22,281 nucleotides of DNA from a virus, in IMG/VR virus record IMGVR_UViG_3300025137_000332, positions 1 through 22,281 of that record, one strand, 5' to 3'. Numbering within the stretch: the first letter of the stretch is position 1; every line of letters begins with the position of its first letter. Shown piece after piece: positions 5,623 to 18,234 of this stretch. The notes under the pieces were generated by a model. That model saw only the letters and a list, made by a program, of their open reading frames with translations. It had not been told where the DNA came from and did not search any database. The position numbers and the translations under genes were made by a program.

Positions 5623-8163
5623 ATGTCTAATGATAATACCCTTGTAAATAAGGTATCTCCATTAATACAAACTCAACTGCCCGAATTCATTCAGTCAGAC
5701 CATCCCCTATTTGCTAGTTTTTTAAAATCGTATTATCAATTTCTAGAAAGTGCTGAAGTAACTTTTAGTGAGGTTAATAACTATCTTGTTCAAGAAACAA
5801 CATCTCCACAATTCATTCTTGACCAACAAGGAGATAATGTTGTTCTTGAAGACTCTGTAGCAAAGTTTACTGTCGGAGAAACTATTACTGGTTTAACTTC
5901 TGGAGCTACAGCAAAGGTTCTAGTGGATGATGTAGATAATAACAAAAGACTTTTTATATCTGCACAGTCTCAATTTATTATTGGGGAAACTGTCAATGGG
6001 TCTACTTCAAACTCTTCTGGTACTATATCAAATTACAAAGCGAACCCTGTACAAAACATTCAACAACTTTTGGGTTATGCAAACGTAGACACTACTGTCT
6101 ATGATTTCTTAGATAGATTTAGAGATTCGTTCCTAGACGGAATGGTTGACAACATTAATAGTGGTGTTGATAAAAGAAAACTAATTAAAAATATTCGTGA
6201 CCTCTACATATCAAAGGGTACAAAAAAAGGACATGAATTATTCTTCAGACTTCTTTTAAATGAAGAAGCAACTATTTCTTATCCTACAGAAAATCTTTTA
6301 AGACCGTCTGATGGTCAGTGGACTTTCAGAACTATTATGAAAGTTCAAGAACTAACTGGTTTTGTTAGTGAACTTATTGGTCAAACGATTACTGGTCAGT
6401 CATCAACTGCTACTGCAATTCCAACATCAACTCTTGGATACAGAGAATCTAACACAAGTATTCAAGAAATTGAAATTGATACAAACTTAATTGTAGGAAC
6501 ATTCGCCGTTGGGGAAACTGTCAAAGGAACTTCTGTTACAAATGACACAGACGTATCCTTTAAAATTCTAGGAATGGTAACAGGAGCTACAGTTTCAAAT
6601 CGTGGTCTTTATTACACTGCTGGACAATCTGTTCCAATTGCTACAGGGGGAAGTGCTACAGCAACTGCTACAGTAGAAACTGTTGGTGTGGGTGGAGTTG
6701 ATAATATTATAATTGATACGGTTGGTAGTAACTATGCAACTGGTGACACAATTAACTTTAATAATACTGGAACAGATGGTACTGGTGCTGCTGCTCAAAT
6801 TTCTGTAGTTGGTGGAGCCCTTGCTCCAGAGACAGGTGATGTTAATGAATATGGAATGGCACTTACAGACCATATTTTATTAGAAGACTTTACTCAATCA
6901 GTAATGGGTGATACTTATCATGGAACAAAGATTGTTCTTGAGGATGCTACATTTGGTAATGCGCCAGGCAGTAGTGTAAATGAACGTGGTTCTATTACAG
7001 ACATTAGATTAATTAATAGTGGTACAGGATATAAAAGTCTTCCCTTTATTTCTTCTATATCAACTGCTTCTGGTACTGGAGCTAAACTTCTTGGTAAATC
7101 AACAAGTGGTATTGGACAGATTGAAGGTATTACATTCTCAAATTTTGGTTTCAATTACACCTCTGCACCAACGATAAGTCCACTACGTCATGTTATCATA
7201 ACAGGAATAACTGGAACATTTTCTGCTGGGAATTCATTAACATCTCATACAGGTAAAGTTGTAACCTTTGATACTGTAAGACAACTTATGACAATTGACA
7301 CAACAGCTAATCTAGCTGTAGGAAATACAATTGCTACTTCGGGTGCTAGTGGTGTTGTTGCTGATGTAAACATTGGTGTTGCAACTGCAACTATCGGACA
7401 GGTTGGTACAACAACTGGCGATTTCTTAGGAGAGTTTGGTAAAGCATCTTCAGATGTTATGAGAATTCAAGACTCTAATTATTACCAAGACTATTCCTAT
7501 GTGGTTAAAGTTGGTGAGGGTATTGCTAGTTGGAGAAGTGCAATCAAGAAAACTGTTCACCCTGCTGGTTGGGCTGTGTTCGGAGAAGTTGCAACAGTTA
7601 ACAAAGTAAGTGCTGGAGTACAGGTACAACAGGTAGAATCATTTACACCAGAACTCGCATCTCTATTCTCTACAATCTTTACAACTATTTTTGGTAGAAG
7701 ACTTGGTGTAGCAGGAACAACAACACTTAGGGCAAACGCTAAGTTGGGTAGTAATGCAATATTAAACTCTGGTGAAAGAGATGTTACATTAACAAAAGTT
7801 AATACTATATTTGTAGGAACTGCCAGAGTAGCAAAGTATACTGGGCCCACATTAGATTTACTTCCTAAGTACGCATTTTCAATTGGGCCAAGAACTACTG
7901 AAAATACACTTGCACACTATCCAACTATAGTGTCTAAAGCAAAGAGCGATACAAATGATTTTGCATATTTTAATATTGGACAATTTGCAGATATAAAAAT
8001 TAACCAAGTATCTGATAGTAATGGTAACATACCAGCTTCAGCATTCGTCACAAAGTCAAATGTGCCACCGCCTGGATCTATTGAGATATCAAATACTTCT
8101 AGTAAGTTTGATACCACTAATATCAGTTTTGACAGTAACTTGAAGACTTTTGATGCACAGTAG
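5623..8163 (+). CDS. Large baseplate-associated structural protein in the gp7 position
   Basis: The start ATG 5623 is 2 nt after the gp6 stop, with no clear ribosome-binding site, so coupling to gp6 is likely. The 846-aa product opens with QTQLPEFIQSDHPLFASFLK and SYYQFLE (17-42), a motif I recall from large baseplate proteins of marine T4-like phages. A helical block at about 143-240 carries ISKGTKKGHELFFRLLLNE and PTENLLRPSDGQW. Residues 80-135 and several later stretches contain FTVGETITGLTSGATAKV-type repeats; 320-520 holds repeats of the SNRGLYYTAG / NSGTGYKSLP kind. By gene order (gp25, gp6, this gene, ..., gp8) it occupies the place of T4 gp7, the long wedge protein (1032 aa), but sequence similarity to gp7 cannot be asserted by eye. 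A structural role is very likely; equivalence to gp7 is inference. Confidence 0.8.
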   Translation: MSNDNTLVNKVSPLIQTQLPEFIQSDHPLFASFLKSYYQFLESAEVTFSEVNNYLVQETTSPQFILDQQGDNVVLEDSVAKFTVGETITGLTSGATAKVLVDDVDNNKRLFISAQSQFIIGETVNGSTSNSSGTISNYKANPVQNIQQLLGYANVDTTVYDFLDRFRDSFLDGMVDNINSGVDKRKLIKNIRDLYISKGTKKGHELFFRLLLNEEATISYPTENLLRPSDGQWTFRTIMKVQELTGFVSELIGQTITGQSSTATAIPTSTLGYRESNTSIQEIEIDTNLIVGTFAVGETVKGTSVTNDTDVSFKILGMVTGATVSNRGLYYTAGQSVPIATGGSATATATVETVGVGGVDNIIIDTVGSNYATGDTINFNNTGTDGTGAAAQISVVGGALAPETGDVNEYGMALTDHILLEDFTQSVMGDTYHGTKIVLEDATFGNAPGSSVNERGSITDIRLINSGTGYKSLPFISSISTASGTGAKLLGKSTSGIGQIEGITFSNFGFNYTSAPTISPLRHVIITGITGTFSAGNSLTSHTGKVVTFDTVRQLMTIDTTANLAVGNTIATSGASGVVADVNIGVATATIGQVGTTTGDFLGEFGKASSDVMRIQDSNYYQDYSYVVKVGEGIASWRSAIKKTVHPAGWAVFGEVATVNKVSAGVQVQQVESFTPELASLFSTIFTTIFGRRLGVAGTTTLRANAKLGSNAILNSGERDVTLTKVNTIFVGTARVAKYTGPTLDLLPKYAFSIGPRTTENTLAHYPTIVSKAKSDTNDFAYFNIGQFADIKINQVSDSNGNIPASAFVTKSNVPPPGSIEISNTSSKFDTTNISFDSNLKTFDAQ

Positions 8164-8175
8164 TTGTAGAAGTCT

Positions 8176-8183
8176 TATAAATA
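8176..8183 (+). promoter_or_regulatory. T4-type late promoter (TATAAATA) upstream of the fibre island
   Basis: An exact TATAAATA lies in the 46-nt gap between the gp7-position gene and the 263-aa fibre-like gene, 26 nt before its ATG. It gives the fibre island its own late transcription start. Confidence 0.85.
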
Positions 8184-8209
8184 AGAGTATAGGAATTTAG
8201 GAGAAACAC

Positions 8210-9001
8210 ATGGCGTATCAAGCAATTGGATTAGGGTCTTCAGCCAACGATGGTAATGGTGACACAATCCGTGCTGGTGGAGATAAAGTAAATGATAACT
8301 TTGTAGAATTGTATACTAAACTTGGTAACGGTTCTGCATTATCGAACATTACTTTCCCTACTGGAACTGATACTATTGTAGGAAGAGCAACTACGGACAC
8401 TCTTACTAACAAAACAATTACTGCTCCCACCATTAACGGAGTAGTTGGTGGAACTCAAACTTCAGCAACAATCACTACACTTACAACTGCTGGAATTACT
8501 GGAACTGGTGGTGCTCTAGAAGTTACACCAGCTAATAATATACTTGAGATTAGAGGTAATGGTTCATCAGTTGAAGGGCAGATTAAACTTAACTGTCATG
8601 CAAACACACATGGACAAACACTTAAAGCACAACCACATAGTGCAAGTATAACAAACACAATGTTGCTTCCTATTGGTGCAAGTTCTACATTGGTGAGTTT
8701 GATATCTGCTGATACACTTACAAATAAAACTTTAACTTCACCAGATATTAATACACCAGACATTGACGGTGGTACTATTGATGGTGCAGTAATTGGTGCA
8801 AACACTCCAGCTGCAATTACAGGTACAGCAATTAGTGGAACATCTATTGCCGTTACTGGCACTGCTGGTGCAATGACACTGAACTCAGTAACAACAACTC
8901 AACGTAATGCATTGACTGCTGCTGTTGGAATGGTTGTATACAATAGTACTACAAGTAAAATTCAAGCATACGCTGGTAGTGCTTGGGTTGACTTACATTA
9001 A
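8210..9001 (+). CDS. Short tail-fibre-like structural protein, 263 aa
   Basis: The start is ATG 8210, behind AGGAGAAAC (8199-8207). The N-terminus (IGLGSSANDGNGDTIRAGGD, then KVNDNFVELYTKL) is a pattern I recall from short structural proteins of marine T4-like phages. The middle has two copies of a fibre repeat, TDTLTNKTITAPTINGV (62-78) and ADTLTNKTLTSPDINTP (167-183), typical of trimeric fibre shafts. The C-terminus has the common tip motif QRNALTAAVGMVVYNSTTSK with AYAGSAWVDL (231-262). I infer a short homotrimeric fibre or an adapter attached to the baseplate. It is the first gene of a three-gene island between wedge genes. The exact role (gp9/gp10/gp12 analogue) is not decidable here. 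Confidence 0.78.
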   Translation: MAYQAIGLGSSANDGNGDTIRAGGDKVNDNFVELYTKLGNGSALSNITFPTGTDTIVGRATTDTLTNKTITAPTINGVVGGTQTSATITTLTTAGITGTGGALEVTPANNILEIRGNGSSVEGQIKLNCHANTHGQTLKAQPHSASITNTMLLPIGASSTLVSLISADTLTNKTLTSPDINTPDIDGGTIDGAVIGANTPAAITGTAISGTSIAVTGTAGAMTLNSVTTTQRNALTAAVGMVVYNSTTSKIQAYAGSAWVDLH

Positions 9002-9014
9002 AGGATAGATAAGA

Positions 9015-10172
9015 ATGGCAATTGATAAAATTACAGCTAGTGGTCTTGGAGATGGTGGAGTAACAACTGCTGATTTGGCAGATGGTGCTGTATCACTTGC
9101 AAAACTTTCTGCATCTGGAACAAAAAACAATACAACATTCCTTCGTGGAGATAATACGTTTTCTGCATTGTCAACCACTCTCGCTGGACTAGATGATACT
9201 ACAGTAAACTCAGGCGACCCAGCATATAATAGTAATGTTGCTGGTGCATCAGTTGGTCACATTTGGGTTAACTCAACTTCTGGTGAGGTTTATGTTCTAA
9301 CAAACGCTACAAACAACTTAAATGTTTGGACAAATATTGGTGATGGAACTGGAACTCTTAACGCCTCATATAATATATCAGACATCCTCGTAGTCGCTGG
9401 AGGCGGCGGCGGTGGTGCTCGTGGAGGCGGTGGTGCTGGTGGTATGCTTCAAGCAGCAGGTTATAGTATTTTAACTGGTAACACAATCACAGCAACCGTT
9501 GGTGGTGGTGGTGACCAAGGTAGTGCTGGTGATGGTAATGATGGGGGCAACTCTGTTCTTGCAACAAATGGTGGTCAATGGTCAACACTAACTGCAATCG
9601 GTGGTGGTGGCGGCGGTCAAACAAATGGTCGTACTGGTGGTTCTGGTGGCGGTGGTGATTATCAAGCATCTGGTGGTGCTGGAACTGCTGGACAAGGAAA
9701 TGCTGGTGGTGCTGGTGCTGGCTCTGCTACTGTAACTGGTGGAGGCGGTGGTGGAAAATCTGCTGCTGGTTCTAATGGTGTTGGTAACTCAGCTGGTGGT
9801 GCTGGTGGTGCTGGTTTAGCAGACTCAATTACTGGTTCATCCGTAACATACGCTGGTGGCGGTGGAGGTGGTTCTGAAACAGTTCGTGGTGGTGAAGCCG
9901 GTGCAGGCGGCGGTGGTAGAGGTGTTTTCTTATCAGGCTCTGGATGGAATGCTCAAGGTGATGTTGGTGATTCTGGAACTCCAAATACTGGTGGAGGCGG
10001 CGGTGGTTCTTATAATGGTGGTGTCATTGGTGGACACGGTGGTAGTGGTGTAGTTATTATTGTTGTACCTACTGCAAGATATAGTGGAACAACATCTGGT
10101 TCACCAACAGTCACAACAGTGGGTGCAAACAAAGTAATTAAATTTACCTCTTCTGGTACATATACAGCATAG
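9015..10172 (+). CDS. Polyglycine-rich tail-fibre adhesin, 385 aa
   Basis: The start is ATG 9015, with AAAGGATAG about 8 nt upstream. Residues 1-37 (MAIDKITASGLGDGGVTTAD, then LADGAVSLAKL) resemble the start of the fibre gene at 21721 and probably anchor the protein. Residues 60-115 contain a small beta motif (VGHIWVNSTSGEVYVLTN). From about residue 128 to 345 the sequence is dominated by Gly-rich runs (GGGGGG, GGAGGAG) between short variable segments, ending GGHGGSGVVIIVVPTARYSG; this resembles the widespread glycine-rich domain of phage adhesins, known in S16-type gp38 to form a polyglycine-II sandwich whose loops bind the receptor. I infer a host-recognition tip. The DNA is locally G-rich on the + strand. 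Confidence 0.8.
   Translation: MAIDKITASGLGDGGVTTADLADGAVSLAKLSASGTKNNTTFLRGDNTFSALSTTLAGLDDTTVNSGDPAYNSNVAGASVGHIWVNSTSGEVYVLTNATNNLNVWTNIGDGTGTLNASYNISDILVVAGGGGGGARGGGGAGGMLQAAGYSILTGNTITATVGGGGDQGSAGDGNDGGNSVLATNGGQWSTLTAIGGGGGGQTNGRTGGSGGGGDYQASGGAGTAGQGNAGGAGAGSATVTGGGGGGKSAAGSNGVGNSAGGAGGAGLADSITGSSVTYAGGGGGGSETVRGGEAGAGGGGRGVFLSGSGWNAQGDVGDSGTPNTGGGGGGSYNGGVIGGHGGSGVVIIVVPTARYSGTTSGSPTVTTVGANKVIKFTSSGTYTA
9396..10052 (+). repeat. GGN-codon-rich low-complexity tract encoding polyglycine segments
   Basis: The + strand is dense in ggtggtggcggcggt-like runs, much richer in G than the AT-rich surroundings, and includes many imperfect repeats of GGT-GGT-GCT-GGT. Reading frames on both strands stay open across it because stop codons are excluded by composition. 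Such repeats can expand or contract by slippage or recombination. Confidence 0.75.
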
Positions 10173-10182
10173 GAAAACAAAT

Positions 10183-10515
10183 ATGACATATTTCGCAAAA
10201 GTATCAAGTGATGGAACAGTACTAGACGTTATTGTTGCAGACCAAGATTTTATTGATAACAATACAGAAAGTTCAGATGACCATTCTTATGTAGAAACAT
10301 TTATGGATGCAGATGGAAAATCTAAAAAATATAATTATGCATCAAAGGGTCATATGTATAATTCTGATGCTAAGGCATTTCACAGGTTACAACCTTATGC
10401 AAGTTGGAAACTGAACACAACAACATATTTGTGGGAGCCTCCTGTTGCACAACCATCTAGTGGTAAACACGAATGGGATGAAGGTACTCAAAAATGGGTT
10501 GCAGTAACCGAATAA
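10183..10515 (+). CDS. Small fibre-associated protein of the W-rich marine-phage type, 110 aa
   Basis: The start is ATG 10183, with ATAGGAAAA (10171-10179) upstream. The N-terminus MTYFAKVSSDGTVLDVIVADQDFID and the C-terminal pattern RLQPYASWKLN..TYLWEPPV...P....HEWDE.TQKWV (about 67-106) match a small protein I recall as very common next to tail and fibre genes in T4-like phages of marine bacteria. The spaced tryptophans (near 74, 86, 97 and 103) suggest a compact aromatic beta domain. Its biochemical role is not established to my knowledge; location right after the adhesin suggests a fibre tip, cap or assembly partner. It contains no signal peptide or membrane segment. Confidence 0.75.
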   Translation: MTYFAKVSSDGTVLDVIVADQDFIDNNTESSDDHSYVETFMDADGKSKKYNYASKGHMYNSDAKAFHRLQPYASWKLNTTTYLWEPPVAQPSSGKHEWDEGTQKWVAVTE

Positions 10516-10518
10516 ATA
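10511..10518 (+). promoter_or_regulatory. Possible weak late promoter (AATAAATA) upstream of the gp8-like gene
   Basis: AATAAATA differs from the late octamer only at the first base and overlaps the stop codon of the previous gene, 18 nt before the next ATG. This is the same spacing as the exact late promoters at 1799 and 3252. The same variant occurs at 18919-18926. In AT-rich DNA a one-mismatch octamer is weak evidence. Confidence 0.45.
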
Positions 10519-10536
10519 AGATTATAGGAAAAAACA

Positions 10537-12045
10537 ATGGCAGCGATAATTACAGAAAAATTTAGACAAGCAAATGCAGATACATTTTTTGCAAACTTGT
10601 CTTCCAGCAAATATTATATGTTTGTTGGAAAGTCACAACCGTGGACTTCAGAAGGTGCGGCTTCGGATAGTAATCCACCCACACCAATTGATAGTGTAGC
10701 GCCCGAATCTTATTATTGGGATGATATGTTGGCAGCAAAACTAATTGCTGGTTCAAACATTTCTTATGTAGTTCCTCGTAGAAATTTCTCTACAAGTTCT
10801 GCATTCGATATGTATCGTCACGATGTTTCGGGAACAACTACTACTGGTAACTACCCAGCGAAAACAACTTCGTCAAGTGGTGCTACTAGTGTATATGATT
10901 CTACATATTACTTCTTAACAAGTGCTAATCGTGTGTATAAGGTATTATATAATGGTGACCAACTTCAAACTGGTGCATCTAATATTTCGGGTTCTGAACC
11001 AACAACAGAATCAACTACACCATTTTGGCAGGATGGGAATTATTATCTAAAGTATATGTATTCACTAACTACTTCAGAAGTTCAAAACTTTTTAACTACT
11101 GATTTTATGCCTGTATCAAATACTGCAAACGCTGTAGTTGATAGGGGTATCTATGTATTTTCGGTAACAACTGCTGGGTCATCGTATCCAAATGGAACTT
11201 TCTATTCACCACTTCGTGGTGATGGTACTGGTGGTAAGATTGCTCTCGTTGTTGCTGGTGGTTCAATTACAGAATTTGGTTCTAATAATTCAACCAGTTC
11301 ATATATGTATGCGCCGGGCAGTGGATATAGTTTTGCAAACATCGACCTTAGTGCTGCTAATATCTTTACAGACAATGGTTGTTCAACTGCAATCTCTGGT
11401 TCAGTTGCAACTGCATGGGGGAATGCGACTACTGGTGTTATCAGAACAATGATTGAACCAAAGGGTGGTCATGGTTCTGACGATATCGCTGAACTTGGTG
11501 GACATTATATTATGGTTCAAGGTAAATTTGAACCTACTGATACTGATGCAACACAAGTCAATGATTTCAGAAGAGTTGGTTTGTTAAAGAATCCATTCGC
11601 TACTGCGTCTGGTGCTGTTTCAACCCTTTCAACTGCAAGACAAACTAGAGCAGTTATTTTTAGTGGTTCGATTTCAACTAACTTCCAATCAGATGAAAAG
11701 ATTACACAAGCAACAACTGGTGCTCAAGGTAGAGTAGTAGAATTTGATGCTTCCAATAAAATACTATATTACGTTCAAGAAAAGTATACCACTTACGGCC
11801 TAGATAGTAGTGGTAATATGACATTGTTCTCTGGTGCAAATGCAATAACTGGTTCAACATCTTCTGCTAGTTATACACCAAACACAAGTTCTTCTGCAAC
11901 TGTAAATACAACACTATTTGCTAGTGGATATTCAGTACCAGAACTAACTCAAGATACAGGAGAAGTTCTGTACGTTGAAAATAGAAGAGCAATCTCAAGA
12001 GCAAGTGACCAAACAGAAGATATTAAAGTCGTAGTGGAATTTTAA
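10537..12045 (+). CDS. 8: Baseplate wedge protein, gp8-like
   Basis: The start is ATG 10537, behind ATAGGAAAA (10523-10531). The N-terminal 200 residues fit the gp8 pattern of T4-like phages of marine bacteria: MAAIITEKFRQANADTFFAN (1-20), KYYMFVGKSQPW (25-36), YYWDDMLAAKLI (59-70), SYVVPRRNF (76-84) and WQDGNYYLKYMYSLTTSEV (164-182). In T4, gp8 (334 aa) forms dimers in the wedge that link gp7 and gp10. This protein is longer (502 aa): about 390-440 holds an SDEKITQATTGAQGRVVEFD segment related to repeats in two neighbouring virion proteins, and the end is Ser/Thr-rich before a conserved-looking ENRRAISRASDQTEDIKVVV tail. It is 3 nt upstream of the 2061-aa gene. Confidence 0.85.
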   Translation: MAAIITEKFRQANADTFFANLSSSKYYMFVGKSQPWTSEGAASDSNPPTPIDSVAPESYYWDDMLAAKLIAGSNISYVVPRRNFSTSSAFDMYRHDVSGTTTTGNYPAKTTSSSGATSVYDSTYYFLTSANRVYKVLYNGDQLQTGASNISGSEPTTESTTPFWQDGNYYLKYMYSLTTSEVQNFLTTDFMPVSNTANAVVDRGIYVFSVTTAGSSYPNGTFYSPLRGDGTGGKIALVVAGGSITEFGSNNSTSSYMYAPGSGYSFANIDLSAANIFTDNGCSTAISGSVATAWGNATTGVIRTMIEPKGGHGSDDIAELGGHYIMVQGKFEPTDTDATQVNDFRRVGLLKNPFATASGAVSTLSTARQTRAVIFSGSISTNFQSDEKITQATTGAQGRVVEFDASNKILYYVQEKYTTYGLDSSGNMTLFSGANAITGSTSSASYTPNTSSSATVNTTLFASGYSVPELTQDTGEVLYVENRRAISRASDQTEDIKVVVEF

Positions 12046-12048
12046 AAC

Positions 12049-15000
12049 ATGGCACAGAAAACAGATTTAAACGTATCACCATATTATGATGACTTCAATG
12101 TTGACGATGATTTTCATCGTGTACTCTTTCGGCCTGGATTTGCAATCCAAGCAAGAGAACTAACTCAACTACAGTCAATCTTACAAAACCAAGTTGAAAA
12201 GCATGGAAGACATATGTTCAAAGAAGGAACACTTGTTATCCCAGGCCAAACTGGTTTTACTAATGAATTTTATGCAGTCAAACTGCAAAGTACTTTTAAC
12301 TCTGGTGCAATTGCTGGATACCTCTCATCTTATGTTGGTTCAACCATCACAGGTGCAACCTCTGGTGTTACTGCAAGAGTTGTTGCTGTCGATGCTGCTA
12401 CAACTACAGACCCAGAAACTTTATATGTAAAGTATCTATCGTCTGCAACTAATACTTCTGGTACTTCGGTTGCAAACGTAACAACAGAGTTTATTGATGG
12501 GGAATCTATTCAATCAGATATAGTAATCAATTCATTAAATGCTGGTTCTAACTCTGCAACTCTTTTATCATCTGCTGCTACTGCACAAGGGTCTTCTGCA
12601 AGTATACAAGAAGGTGTATACTTCATTCGTGGAAATTTTGTTCGTGTGACAGAACAGAGAATTGTTCTGGACAAGTATACAAACACTCCTTCTTATCGTG
12701 TCGGTCTTACTGTCACAGAAAGTTTAATTACACCAGAAGCAGATACTTCTCTTTTAGATAATGCTACTGGTTCATCTAATGTAAACGCTAAAGGCGCTCA
12801 CAGACTTAAATACACATTGACCCTTGCAAAACTAGACCTTGGTTCTGCCGCTGATGATAACTTTGTCGAACTCTTCAGAGTTCAAAGGGGTATCATTTCT
12901 CAGAAGGCAAGAAATACAGAATATTCTGTTCTTGGTGAGACTTTTGCAAGACGTACTTTTGATGAGTCTGGTGATTATGCAGTTCGTCCTTTCGATATTG
13001 ATATTCGTGAGACTTTAAACGATGGATTGAACAACGGTCTTTATTCTGCTAATGCAAATACAGATAGTGGAAACACTGCATCTGAACAGTTGATGACAGT
13101 ACAAGTTTCGCCTGGAAAGGCATATGTAAAGGGATATGAAATTGAAACCGTATCTCCATCATTCATTGATATTAATAAACCTAGAACTACAGCAGAGTTT
13201 GATAGTGCTGTTACTCCTATGGAAGTGGGTAACTTCGCAAGAGTTCAAAAGGTATTCGGTTCACCAGATCTTCACAGTGATGAAGAGGGTACGTCTGCAA
13301 TTACTCCATATAAAACTGTATCTCTAGTTGATAAAGTAACTTCTACAAGAGGTGCAATTGCTAGTGGTGGAACAGTTCTTGGATTTGCTCGTGTTAAAGG
13401 ATTTGAACACGAATCAAATAACCTTGGGTCAAGTACACATTACCTAACTAAAGCTAGTGTAGATAACGCTGAATTTAAATTATATCTTTTTGATATTCGT
13501 ATGATTACGAAACTAACAGTCAGTGCTGCCCCATCACCTTCTAACAATGTTCCTATCGGTGCAAAGATTACTGGTGTTAATAGTGGTGCAACTGGTTTTG
13601 TAACAACTGGTACTACAAGTACAACTATCAATCTTATTACAACTGTTGGTACATTCCAAACTGGTGAAAAAATACTTTCAACATCAAGTGCTGAGACTGA
13701 CCAGATTGTAGAGAATTCTTCAAACGCTGATATTACTATTAGTACAGTTACAGGTAGAGACTTTAGTGAAGTCAAACAAGTATTCATGGATGACCCACAA
13801 AGTGGTCAAGATTTTACTGCTAACCTTAAACTTTCAAACCAACTTAAACTTAGTGGTGTTGTAACAACAACTTCTGGCGACCCAACCGTAACTGGATTTG
13901 GTACGTCTTTCACTACAGAACTTAAAGCTGGTGATCATATTAACATTGACGGTGTTGGTGAGAAAATTGTTGCAAGTGTTACTAATGCTACAGAGTTAGA
14001 ACTAACCACTAATGGTGGTACTGCACAAACTACAGTTGGTCTAACAAGATTGCGTGCTCAATTACAAGACCAAGAGAAAAACCTTTCTCTTAGAAAAGTA
14101 AGAAAAACAAATACAAAAACTTTAAAGACTGATGGTAATGGAAATGTTTCACAAACCTTTATTACTGTTCGTAAACAATTTATTAAAACATCAAACGGTT
14201 CTGGTATTATAACTTTCGGTGCTGCTACTGGTGAGACTTTCTCTGCAAAATCTAATGTAGATTATATTGCACAAGTATTGACTGCTGGTTCTGCAATCGG
14301 TGGTTCTGGTACAACAGCTGCTGCTGGTGATATTCTTAATCTCAACTCCACACTTGTTACTGCATTTACAATTTCTGGTAACTCACTTTCGATTACTGCC
14401 CCCGCTCTATTAGGTAGTGGTGCAGAAGTTAAGTTAGTTGCTACCGTAACAAGATCTGTGTCAGTTGAAAAAAGTAAAACTAAAAATGCTTCTCATCTTG
14501 TTCTTGTAGATAATGATGTTGCTGAATATGGTACATCTGCTAGACACAAAGATATCTCTCTTGGTCGTGGTGATGTTTATAAGTTACTCGCAGTATACGA
14601 TTCGGAATCTGGTAGTAATCCAGTTATTCCACAATGGACACTTACAGGTGTGAGTGGAACATTCGTAAAGGGTGAGATTATTACTGGTGCAACTTCTGGT
14701 GTTACTGCAACAGTGGTTAATCCAACAACTCCACTTACTTTTGTACCAACAATTTCTACTGCAAATTTCACTTCTAGTGAAAAGATTACAGGTGGAACAT
14801 CTGCCGCTACTGCAACTCTGGATACCTTTACTGCTGGTTCAAGAGATATTACATCTAGGTTTGAACTAGATAATGGACAAAGAGATAACTATTATGATGT
14901 CTCTAGAATAAGAAGAAAGGCTGGTCAAAGTGAACCCGCTGGTAAACTGTTAATCGTATGTCATTATTTTGACCACGGTACAGGTGATTTCTTTTCTGTA

Positions 15001-18000
15001 GATTCATATAGTTCAGTTGACTATAAAGAAATACCAGTTTATTCTGCTACTAGGGTTGACCCAGAGGTTAGAGAACCTACTGGTGAATATGACTTGCGTG
15101 ATGCTTTTGACTTTAGACCAAAGGTTGCTAACTCTACTCAAACAACTTCTACTATTCAGAATCAAACTTGTTATAAAGTTACTGACTTTAGTTTTGACTT
15201 TACTAAGAGAACATTTAGTGGTGCTGGTGCATCTGAAATTCGTGTACCAAAAGATAATTCAAATATGTTATATGATTTTGAACATTATCTTGGTAGAATT
15301 GATTTACTTGCACTAACAGAAAATGGTCAGTTTAAGATTGTTTCGGGAACAGCTGCAGAAGATCCTGTCGCTCCCAAACCTTTAGAAAATGCAATGTTAA
15401 TTGCTAAGTTAAACTTTAATCCATATATCTTGGATGAGTTTGATGCTTCTTTCACCAAGTCTGATAATAAAAGATACACCATGCGTGATATCGGTAAACT
15501 AGAAGCTCGTATTAATAATATCGAATATTACACTGCTCTTAATCTCTTAGAAAAAGATGCTCAGTCTTTAGAAGTAACTGACTCAGATGGACTTAATAGA
15601 TTTAAGTCTGGATTCGTTGTAGACAACTTTGCTGGTCATGCTACTGGTGATGTTAAACATCCAGATTATCGTTGTGCAATTGATATGTCTGCTGGTGAAC
15701 TTCGCCCAAAATATTTTATGAAGGGTGTTAAGTTGCTTGAAGAAAACTCAAACGATACTTCAAGAACACTAAACAATTATGCAAAAACTGGTGACTTGAT
15801 TACGTTACCATATACTCATCAAATTGTAGCACAACAAGTTTACGCTTCTAGAGTTGAAAATCTTAACCCTGTACTTAACTTCTCATGGGCTGGTATCTGT
15901 ACACTTTCACCATCTGGTGATGAGTGGTTTGAAACAGAACGTGCTCCAGATTTGGTTGTTAATAGAGAAGGTAACTTTGATACAATTCTTGCACAGAATA
16001 GGAATGCTCTTGGAACTATTTGGAATGCTTGGCAGACACAGTGGACAGGTGAAACTGTTATAGGAACAAATCAATTTAGAGATACTTCTTGGCAACGTGC
16101 TAGAAGACAAGTTCCATTTAGACCTGTTATTCAAAGAACTACGACTCAACAAACAGGTGTTGCTACTAGACAAGGTGTTCAAACAAATGTAATTGCACAG
16201 ATTGATAGGGAATCCCAAGGTGATAGAATTATATCACGGGCAGTTATTCCTTTCATGCGTTCTGTAAATATTAGTTTCTCTGCTGTTGGTCTTAAACCTT
16301 TAACTAGAGTTTATCCATTCTTTGATAAGAATAATGTTACTTCACACACAACCCCAAATGGTGGTAGTGCTGGTGCTGCGTTGATATCAACTGCTAATGG
16401 TGACTTGAGTGGTACATTCTTAGTACCAGACCCAACTGTATCTGGTAACCCAAGATTTAGAACTGGTGAAAGGGTGTTTAGACTTACATCTTCTACAACT
16501 AATGATTCTACTACTGAACCAGAAACATTCTGTCAGGCAACATTCTCTGCTACAGGTATTCTTAATACTGTACAAGAAACTATCATTGCGACTCGTAATG
16601 CAAGAGTAGAAACTAGAACAGTTCAACAGACTCAAAATGTTGTTGGTCAAACAACAACTAGAGATGACGTTGTTGGTTGGTGGGATCCTCTTGCCCAATC
16701 CTTTATGCCACAGGCTGAAGGTGGTGAGTACATTACTAAGGTTGATGCATACTTCTCAACTAAAGATGCTAACATTCCAGTTACTTGTCAAATTAGAGAA
16801 ATGCAAAATGGATATCCAACAACAAAGGTTCTTCCATTTGCCTCTAAGACACTTAATCCTAGTGGGGTTAGTTTGTCATCTAATGCTTCTGTTGCAACAA
16901 CATTCATCTTTGATTCTCCTGTATATGTGAAGAATGGAACAGAATATTGTATCGTTCTTCAAACAGATTCAGACCAATATAAGGCATGGATTTCTAGAAT
17001 GGGAGAACTTGATGTTGGTGGTACAAGGATGATATCAGAACAACCATATCTTGGTGTTCTTTTCAAATCACAAAACAATACTACTTGGACTGCATATGAT
17101 TTTGAAGATTTGAAATTCACGTTATATCGTGCTAAATTCTCAACTGGTATTAATGGTGTAATGACTTTGGTTAACGAACCTCTTCCAGTTAAGAAACTAG
17201 AACCATCTTCAATAGAAACTTCAAATGGTAGTAATGTGGTCAAAGTTTATCATCGTGACCACGGTATGTATTCGACATCAAACAATGTGATTATTGCTGG
17301 TGTGGTTGCAAACGCTGGGTCTGCTGTAAATGGTATTCCAATCACAGAACTCAATGCTACTCATACTGCTATTTCAAATATTCAAATAGATTCTTATACA
17401 ATCACAGTAAGTAGTAATGCTACTTCTACTGGAACTGCTGGTGGTAATAATGTTACTGCAACAGAAAATGCTCTGATAGATCAGTTGCAAACTCTTGTTC
17501 CAACTGTAGAACATCCAGATACTTCTCTGATTGCAAATATTAGAAGTACAAGTGGTACTTCACCTAGTGGAACTCAAACATCATTTAATTTACAGGCTGC
17601 TTCACAATCAGAAGTAATACCTATTAATGATGGTTATATTTTTGAAAATTCAAGATTGATTGCTTCTCCTATTAATGAAACTAATGAGTTATCTGGAAGT
17701 AAATCATTTAGACTTTCATTTACAATGGGAACAACAAAAGATAATCTGTCTCCTGTAATTGACCTTGATAGAAAATCAATTCTGACTGTAGCTAATAGGT
17801 TGGATAATGTGGATACATCTTCAGACGTATACCCAACAACATCGTATGTATCACCTAATGAACCAGATGGGGATAGTGGTGAAGCAGTTTATGTAACTCG
17901 TAAGGTTGCACTAAAAACTCCTGCTACATCAATCAAAGTAATATTTGATGCTGTAAGGTTTAATTCTTCTCAGATTCAAGTCATGTATAAAATACTTCGT

Positions 18001-18234
18001 TCAGATGATGCAAGTGATTTTGATGAATTGGGTTGGAGATACTTTAACACGGATGGAAGTCCAGACACTACAGTAAACGATTCAACTAATCAATATGATT
18101 TCCTTGAGAATACTCATAGTGTAGAAGACTTAGATGAATTCATTGCGTTCTCAATTAAGATTAGAATGCAAGGTACTAACTCTTCAGAAGTACCAAGAAT
18201 AAAAGATCTTCGTGCTATTGCATTGGCGACATAA
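12049..18234 (+). CDS. Giant tail/baseplate structural protein, DUF4815-type, 2061 aa
   Basis: ATG 12049 comes 3 nt after the gp8 stop; only TGGAA lies upstream, so translational coupling is likely. The N-terminus (YYDDFNVDDDFHRVLFRPGF, then AIQARELTQLQSILQNQ) is the motif I associate with DUF4815 of large phage tail proteins. Residues about 100-112, 507-520, 876-890 and 910-925 carry ITGATSGVTA-like repeats. About 620-670 is a small beta module (VTGFGTSFTTELKAGDHI). Near 1544 is WWDPLAQSFMPQAEGGEYIT, followed by YFSTKD, IREMQNGYP, VYVKNGTEYCIVLQTDSDQY and YLGVLFKSQN, a conserved block of such proteins. The C-terminal quarter is beta-rich. It is about 28% of the window. Likely a major peripheral baseplate or fibre component, perhaps an equivalent of T4 gp10/gp11; the exact role is unknown. 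Confidence 0.85.
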   Translation: MAQKTDLNVSPYYDDFNVDDDFHRVLFRPGFAIQARELTQLQSILQNQVEKHGRHMFKEGTLVIPGQTGFTNEFYAVKLQSTFNSGAIAGYLSSYVGSTITGATSGVTARVVAVDAATTTDPETLYVKYLSSATNTSGTSVANVTTEFIDGESIQSDIVINSLNAGSNSATLLSSAATAQGSSASIQEGVYFIRGNFVRVTEQRIVLDKYTNTPSYRVGLTVTESLITPEADTSLLDNATGSSNVNAKGAHRLKYTLTLAKLDLGSAADDNFVELFRVQRGIISQKARNTEYSVLGETFARRTFDESGDYAVRPFDIDIRETLNDGLNNGLYSANANTDSGNTASEQLMTVQVSPGKAYVKGYEIETVSPSFIDINKPRTTAEFDSAVTPMEVGNFARVQKVFGSPDLHSDEEGTSAITPYKTVSLVDKVTSTRGAIASGGTVLGFARVKGFEHESNNLGSSTHYLTKASVDNAEFKLYLFDIRMITKLTVSAAPSPSNNVPIGAKITGVNSGATGFVTTGTTSTTINLITTVGTFQTGEKILSTSSAETDQIVENSSNADITISTVTGRDFSEVKQVFMDDPQSGQDFTANLKLSNQLKLSGVVTTTSGDPTVTGFGTSFTTELKAGDHINIDGVGEKIVASVTNATELELTTNGGTAQTTVGLTRLRAQLQDQEKNLSLRKVRKTNTKTLKTDGNGNVSQTFITVRKQFIKTSNGSGIITFGAATGETFSAKSNVDYIAQVLTAGSAIGGSGTTAAAGDILNLNSTLVTAFTISGNSLSITAPALLGSGAEVKLVATVTRSVSVEKSKTKNASHLVLVDNDVAEYGTSARHKDISLGRGDVYKLLAVYDSESGSNPVIPQWTLTGVSGTFVKGEIITGATSGVTATVVNPTTPLTFVPTISTANFTSSEKITGGTSAATATLDTFTAGSRDITSRFELDNGQRDNYYDVSRIRRKAGQSEPAGKLLIVCHYFDHGTGDFFSVDSYSSVDYKEIPVYSATRVDPEVREPTGEYDLRDAFDFRPKVANSTQTTSTIQNQTCYKVTDFSFDFTKRTFSGAGASEIRVPKDNSNMLYDFEHYLGRIDLLALTENGQFKIVSGTAAEDPVAPKPLENAMLIAKLNFNPYILDEFDASFTKSDNKRYTMRDIGKLEARINNIEYYTALNLLEKDAQSLEVTDSDGLNRFKSGFVVDNFAGHATGDVKHPDYRCAIDMSAGELRPKYFMKGVKLLEENSNDTSRTLNNYAKTGDLITLPYTHQIVAQQVYASRVENLNPVLNFSWAGICTLSPSGDEWFETERAPDLVVNREGNFDTILAQNRNALGTIWNAWQTQWTGETVIGTNQFRDTSWQRARRQVPFRPVIQRTTTQQTGVATRQGVQTNVIAQIDRESQGDRIISRAVIPFMRSVNISFSAVGLKPLTRVYPFFDKNNVTSHTTPNGGSAGAALISTANGDLSGTFLVPDPTVSGNPRFRTGERVFRLTSSTTNDSTTEPETFCQATFSATGILNTVQETIIATRNARVETRTVQQTQNVVGQTTTRDDVVGWWDPLAQSFMPQAEGGEYITKVDAYFSTKDANIPVTCQIREMQNGYPTTKVLPFASKTLNPSGVSLSSNASVATTFIFDSPVYVKNGTEYCIVLQTDSDQYKAWISRMGELDVGGTRMISEQPYLGVLFKSQNNTTWTAYDFEDLKFTLYRAKFSTGINGVMTLVNEPLPVKKLEPSSIETSNGSNVVKVYHRDHGMYSTSNNVIIAGVVANAGSAVNGIPITELNATHTAISNIQIDSYTITVSSNATSTGTAGGNNVTATENALIDQLQTLVPTVEHPDTSLIANIRSTSGTSPSGTQTSFNLQAASQSEVIPINDGYIFENSRLIASPINETNELSGSKSFRLSFTMGTTKDNLSPVIDLDRKSILTVANRLDNVDTSSDVYPTTSYVSPNEPDGDSGEAVYVTRKVALKTPATSIKVIFDAVRFNSSQIQVMYKILRSDDASDFDELGWRYFNTDGSPDTTVNDSTNQYDFLENTHSVEDLDEFIAFSIKIRMQGTNSSEVPRIKDLRAIALAT

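Follow-up and report, generated by a model that had tools for sequence, protein, structure and literature searches.

A predicted six-stranded barrel domain recurs in three baseplate-region proteins of a T4-like phage fragment and at fixed sites in its relatives

Three proteins encoded close together in a 22,281-base stretch of viral DNA, which is the whole of IMG/VR record IMGVR_UViG_3300025137_000332 (hereafter, the window), carry a short beta motif of the form F..GE.ITG.TSGATA.V. The locus raises the question of whether these segments share a common ancestor, what structural unit they belong to, how they came to lie in different virion proteins and what they might do there. The window is probably a genome fragment of a marine T4-like myovirus and contains a baseplate gene cluster of that type. 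In the collection searched, the nearest named phages are Methylophilales phage Melnitz, which matches the full length of the gp7-position protein at 43% and shares the gene order of the window, and the Pelagibacter phages Mosig and HTVC008M. The genes that bear on the analysis are as follows:

1825-2943: gp5
from 2952: PAAR protein
from 3278: gp25
from 3719: gp6
5623-8163, plus strand: gp7-position baseplate wedge protein, 846 aa, host of domain copies A, B and C (order gp25-gp6-gp7-gp8; PF23786, E 5e-13)
10537-12045, plus strand: gp8 baseplate wedge protein, 502 aa (PF09215, E 1e-16; hhalign to T4 gp8, 98.7%)
12049-18234, plus strand: DUF4815/VrlC-like virion protein, 2061 aa, "giant" (PF16075, E 6e-56; phage 812 ORF65 structure 9euf, E 8e-50)

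Two fibre-like genes and a small ORF separate gp7 from gp8. The gp8 assignment scores 61.3 bits against the PF09215 Phage-Gp8 profile (cut-off 25), and the 2061-aa protein scores 190 bits against the PF16075 DUF4815 profile (cut-off 30). Just 5' of gp5, a strong terminator-like hairpin (11 pairs, 6 GC; 1766-1793) divides the baseplate genes from the small genes that precede them. At 145-234 and 810-899, two direct copies of a 90-nt sequence, 77% identical to each other, look like a duplicated early promoter upstream of small genes: both copies contain TTGAC-17-TATATT/TACTAT, with TG before the second hexamer and an ATG at the end. Across the window, the total of promoter-like sites was not above that in shuffles.

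Orthologues of the three host proteins were drawn from viral contigs and named phages and aligned, and the motif is conserved at each site. All of the segments named in a preliminary description of this sequence were present where it had placed them in the gp7-position, gp8 and 2061-aa proteins. The short repeat it had proposed is real, but forms only half of the true unit, a domain of ~60 aa with two similar halves: F..GE.ITG.TSGATA.V, a variable strand, and then a second, usually weaker F..GE.I.G.TS. Seven such domains, or ~14 half-units, lie in the window—three in the gp7-position protein, one in gp8 and three in the DUF4815/VrlC protein (E-values are from the domain HMM, and bit scores from HMMs with the host protein held out):

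5860-6042, plus strand: gp7-A, residues 80-140, halves at ~82 and ~118 (1.7e-17; 42.0 bits)
6364-6561, plus strand: gp7-B, residues 248-313 (9e-9; 13.0 bits)
7204-7392, plus strand: gp7-C, residues 528-590 (1.7e-6; not recovered)
11674-11904, plus strand: gp8 copy, residues 380-456 (2.6e-15; 21.8 bits)
12325-12543, plus strand: giant-A, residues 93-165, second half degenerate (1.8e-9; 14.3 bits)
13546-13719, plus strand: giant-B, residues 500-557 (1.4e-13; 15.1 bits)
14650-14838, plus strand: giant-C, residues 868-930 (8e-17; 29.2 bits)

The segments previously taken as weaker copies (118-137, 294, 585 and 910) are mostly second halves of these domains, and the first half at gp7 residue ~530 had been overlooked. 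Two stretches of the giant gene, 12349-12375 and 14681-14707, had also been called nearly identical in DNA; with those coordinates they are out of register and agree at 5 of 27 positions, while in frame the stretches from 12343 and 14677 share 32 of 39 nt. Within the latter, 11 codons encode the same residue and agree at 29 of 33 nt, where codon usage predicts 26.5; the DNA likeness of giant-A and giant-C is therefore mostly accounted for by codon bias and protein identity. A recent DNA duplication linking the two was rejected because their DNA identity is near that expectation.

Since the host proteins are rich in Gly, Thr and Ser and the window holds many short DNA repeats of such kind, low-complexity, Gly/Thr-rich beta strands might have come to look alike without common descent. 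In profile–profile comparisons with hhalign, 20 of the 21 pairs of the seven domains beat every null, the nulls being 252 comparisons against segments from elsewhere in these Gly/Thr-rich proteins (maximum 20.6) and 210 column shuffles (maximum likewise 20.6). Profile hits no better than shuffled Gly/Thr-rich sequence, an outcome the preliminary description had allowed for, were not what we obtained: HMMs built with one protein left out recovered six of the seven copies at 13-42 bits, well clear of the 9.2 that was the top score in a set of 1,400 shuffled proteins. The HMM built without gp7 sequences did not recover gp7-C, which hhalign finds at 93% against giant-C. Most alignments between copies span 45-61 residues and include both halves, and this extent, together with the held-out profiles and the null segments from the same proteins, makes convergence highly unlikely. 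Chance or low complexity is rejected by both sets of profile nulls as well as by the held-out HMMs and the shuffled proteins, and at the level of sequence the seven copies are shown to be homologous. Scores of first-half against second-half profiles exceed every shuffle in 25 of 49 pairs. Given this resemblance, the domain itself is probably an internal duplication; the likeness of the halves is strongest within gp7-A (98%) and giant-C (97%), and giant-A has a second half that can barely be recognised.

Structure prediction agrees with a two-half organization. An AlphaFold2 model of giant-C alone, computed with an alignment of 103 copies (pLDDT 82), has six strands as two three-strand halves (2-6, 14-17 and 23-28; 34-37, 49-52 and 58-61) with an offset of ~32-35 residues. 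The model of the full gp7-position protein is poor to mediocre overall (pLDDT 64), with gp7-B and gp7-C at ~86-94 and gp7-C itself at ~93; strands of gp7-A in this model lie at 87-90, 96-103, 109-114, 123-126 and 132-139. The expectation that the copies fold alike holds, in terms of strand order, for the four of seven that were modelled (giant-C and gp7-A, B and C). Against the PDB, the isolated barrel gave weak matches (Z about 5, Foldseek E above 1), the top ones being mostly barrel proteins: the F1-ATPase N-terminal barrel (Z 5.1, 52 residues, 2.4 A), eIF2-gamma domain III, EF-Tu and pyruvate kinase. Residues 43-140 of gp7 matched aIF2-gamma domain III at Z 6.6 and 3.3 A. ECOD groups the barrels of pyruvate kinase and EF-Tu as related, of the cradle-loop/RIFT type and with a GD box (PMC4256011), and the domain resembles such barrels in its predicted six strands, its two similar halves and a Gly-acidic motif in each. 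The GE pair, conserved in both halves by column conservation across the seven sites, is suggestive of a GD box-like element. The likeness differs from an established relationship in that Z values reach only 5-6.6, a range that by the search tool possibly reflects mere common arrangement, and sequence homology is not part of the match; a profile search of the PDB for solved relatives returned nothing credible. We therefore describe the domain tentatively as a predicted six-stranded, cradle-loop-like barrel. Among predicted viral structures, the isolated barrel has many matches, including cyanophage virion proteins, a neck protein (gp14) and, from Stenotrophomonas phages, VrlC-type proteins.

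Comparison of the host proteins with their solved relatives places six of the seven copies in stretches longer than those in T4 gp7, T4 gp8 or the phage 812 DUF4815 protein, and the seventh, gp7-B, at the position of T4 gp7's own barrel. Window gp8 residues 1-220, 339-356 and 464-502 align to T4 gp8 9-228, 264-281 and 295-334 (the middle block being weak alone and colinear with the others), and the gp8 copy falls in a stretch of ~107 residues (356-464) against 13 residues in T4 gp8 (281-295). Giant-A lies between blocks matching residues 7-59 and 77-239 of the phage 812 protein, and giant-B and giant-C lie between the blocks matching 77-239 and 365-610. For the gp7-position protein, colinear profile matches pair residues 10-45, 192-324 and 626-665 with T4 gp7 644-679, 732-847 and 862-903; only the second is strong, at E 3.4e-5 (as a single comparison) and 72%. 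On this frame, gp7-A falls in the interval from T4 gp7 679 to 732, in which the window protein is longer by 94 residues and the upstream anchor is weak; gp7-B aligns with T4 gp7 ~781-843, inside the strong match; and gp7-C lies inside an insertion of ~290 aa relative to T4 gp7 847-862.

The colinear profile matches, together with the best PDB structural matches of the gp7 model, which are T4-type gp7 (9f4a_A0, Z 9.5; 5iv5_BJ, Z 8.9; the next unrelated matches have Z 6.6), indicate that T4 gp7 very likely has its orthologue in the 846-aa protein. The gene for this protein follows gp6 and precedes gp8, an order shared with P-HM2 and T4. A published comparison reported T4 gp7 to be absent from pelagimyophages and cyanomyophages, with VrlC in its place (PMC7029224), and a likely gp7 orthologue here speaks against the view that pelagimyophages lack this protein. 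The giant protein was considered as a gp7 substitute and rejected, having no profile similarity to T4 gp7. In P-HM2, gp7 is annotated at 4454 aa (L004:19905-33269), more than five times the length of the window's protein, with few recognisable domain copies. A second repeat type, GSGY..aPtV, occurs at gp7 residues ~460-520 and gp8 residue ~261; it is also found in cyanophage gp14 (L163, L166), and a loose version of the pattern hits P-HM2 gp7 up to 13 times.

The placement of gp7-B bears on where the domain came from. The barrel of T4 gp7 (~764-851; PDB 5iv5, 9f4a) occupies the same position as gp7-B and matches at Z 9.5 over 87 residues and 2.3 A. On the strength of position and structure, it may be the original source of the domain. 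Taken alone, the T4 gp7 barrel has no clear sequence match (best score 21.0 against a null maximum of 19.2), T4 yields no profile match to the domain, and the domain family spans several proteins, unlike the T4 gp7 barrel; that T4 gp7 is not among the matches listed for the isolated-barrel PDB search proves nothing in this respect. A possible but doubtful extension is that the gp7 barrel was copied in an ancestor of the T4-like phages far from T4 and became a general graft domain of gp7, gp8, the DUF4815 protein, neck gp14 and fibres, constituting an undescribed mobile family of cradle-loop barrels in virions.

The copies are present in nearly all orthologues. All three gp7 copies are retained in 43 of 43 orthologues and the gp8 copy in 58 of 60; among orthologues of the 2061-aa protein, giant-A is present in 50 of 52, giant-B in 52 of 53 and giant-C in 50 of 53. 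The orthologues of HTVC008M, Mosig and L059 lack giant-C as a clean gap, running from ISLG.AD to DIT.RF.LD.GQR. The neck protein gp14 carries the domain in P-HM2 and S-PM2, and none was detected in gp14 of T4 or HTVC008M. In a tree of 100 copies, clades form by site across phages, with support of 81-100. As the copies cluster by site and not by phage, any duplication predates the divergence of these phages, and the duplications, as dated by this tree, are old; the earlier proposal of spread by local duplication finds no support in its recent form. Most copies lie in insertions relative to solved relatives or orthologues, and they are old and have kept their positions.

Whole-record HMM scans of chosen phages at E 0.01 extended the range of the domain well beyond the window. 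Melnitz has seven copies, all in the same three genes, and the domain was also found in Mosig, HTVC008M, P-HM2, Sf-CH1b, RHph_I1_18, S-PM2, P-SSM2, phiM12, Cr30, IME-SM1 and SRB7757. At this threshold, none was detected in T4, lambda, KVP40, 812, P2, T7 or D490, and the A-1(L) record gave no match even at E 1. A tblastn search with a made-up domain consensus returned no hits. Carriers include rhizobial, Caulobacter, Stenotrophomonas and Desulfovibrio phages, and in cyanophages the domain extends to tail-fibre and giant structural proteins. The notion of a module confined to neighbouring wedge proteins is too narrow for this range, which includes neck gp14; the best reading is that the domain is common in T4-like phages far from T4. 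Copies match a dozen PHROG families. In Pfam, matches of the 103 copies were weak, scattered and confined to few members each (best E 0.001-0.004), and NCBIfam gave none; the domain is without its own model in either, and no description of it was found in the literature searched.

What the domain does can be approached through its conservation. Of 55 aligned columns, 14 have the same consensus residue at five or more of the seven sites (G, I, T, G, T, S, G, A, V, F, G, E, T, T), and another 21 are conserved within single sites and differ between them, both counts being made on the same alignments that defined the domain. The 14 shared columns read as a fold signature, and the 21 site-specific ones fit different partners at each site. 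The explanation we favour, and regard as likely, joins demonstrated homology, insertion and age with a predicted fold and a proposed contact role: a two-fold, six-stranded barrel of ~60 residues, inserted or retained at many virion-protein sites of T4-like phages outside Straboviridae, would serve as a graft giving site-specific contacts. The graft would fold autonomously, enlarge the surface of the baseplate or neck, and contact whichever neighbour is local, such as other wedge proteins or fibres; its host sites would be wedge gp7 and gp8 and the DUF4815 protein and, in relatives, neck gp14 and fibre-type proteins.

Two other functions deserve weighing against this conservation pattern. The plug envisaged in the preliminary description, in which copies on neighbouring wedge proteins dock into each other or into the same socket and spread by local duplication, draws on the proximity of the three genes and on the contact between gp7 and gp8 in T4 (PMC3004832). 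Nothing beyond the fold signature is conserved between sites, however, and with the domain also in neck gp14, far from the wedge, and its sites forming old clades, such a plug is quite unlikely. Weak binding to glycans on the host surface, a role put forward for Ig-like and BACON domains of phages (a precedent discussed in PMC6949934), would suit copies that decorate distal structures and occur in some fibre-type proteins, but a domain that also occurs in neck gp14 and is strictly kept at fixed wedge sites fits a structural role better, and column conservation across the seven sites reveals no common polar or aromatic binding patch; adhesion is accordingly an unlikely function.

The site-specific graft has parallels among known phage domains. 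Like the Ig-like and BACON domains (PMC6949934; Fraser et al. 2006, as cited there), it is small, predicted to be all-beta, and added to many structural proteins; those domains are likewise present or absent among orthologues, as here in the cases of giant-C and gp14, and sometimes duplicated. It differs in being tentatively predicted as a two-fold six-stranded barrel, not a sandwich, and in being inserted singly at fixed sites instead of in tandem arrays. A Pfam scan of the 103 copies at E up to 1 placed no Ig, Big, fn3 or BACON family among the 24 listed. Another parallel is offered by the wedge protein gp31 of A-1(L), whose insertion domain (residues 81-180) has been solved in two copies, one contacting the hub cleft and the other the long tail fibre (PMC10966104). 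This too is an extra domain in a wedge protein; the contacts of the domain described here are ones we infer, and no sequence relationship between the two was found.

The baseplate proteins of marine T4-like phages are far larger than those of T4, and what this additional sequence does is poorly understood. With the domain defined, some of it could be annotated in phages that infect Pelagibacter, Prochlorococcus, Synechococcus and methylotrophs, and the domain offers a way to align proteins that look unrelated.
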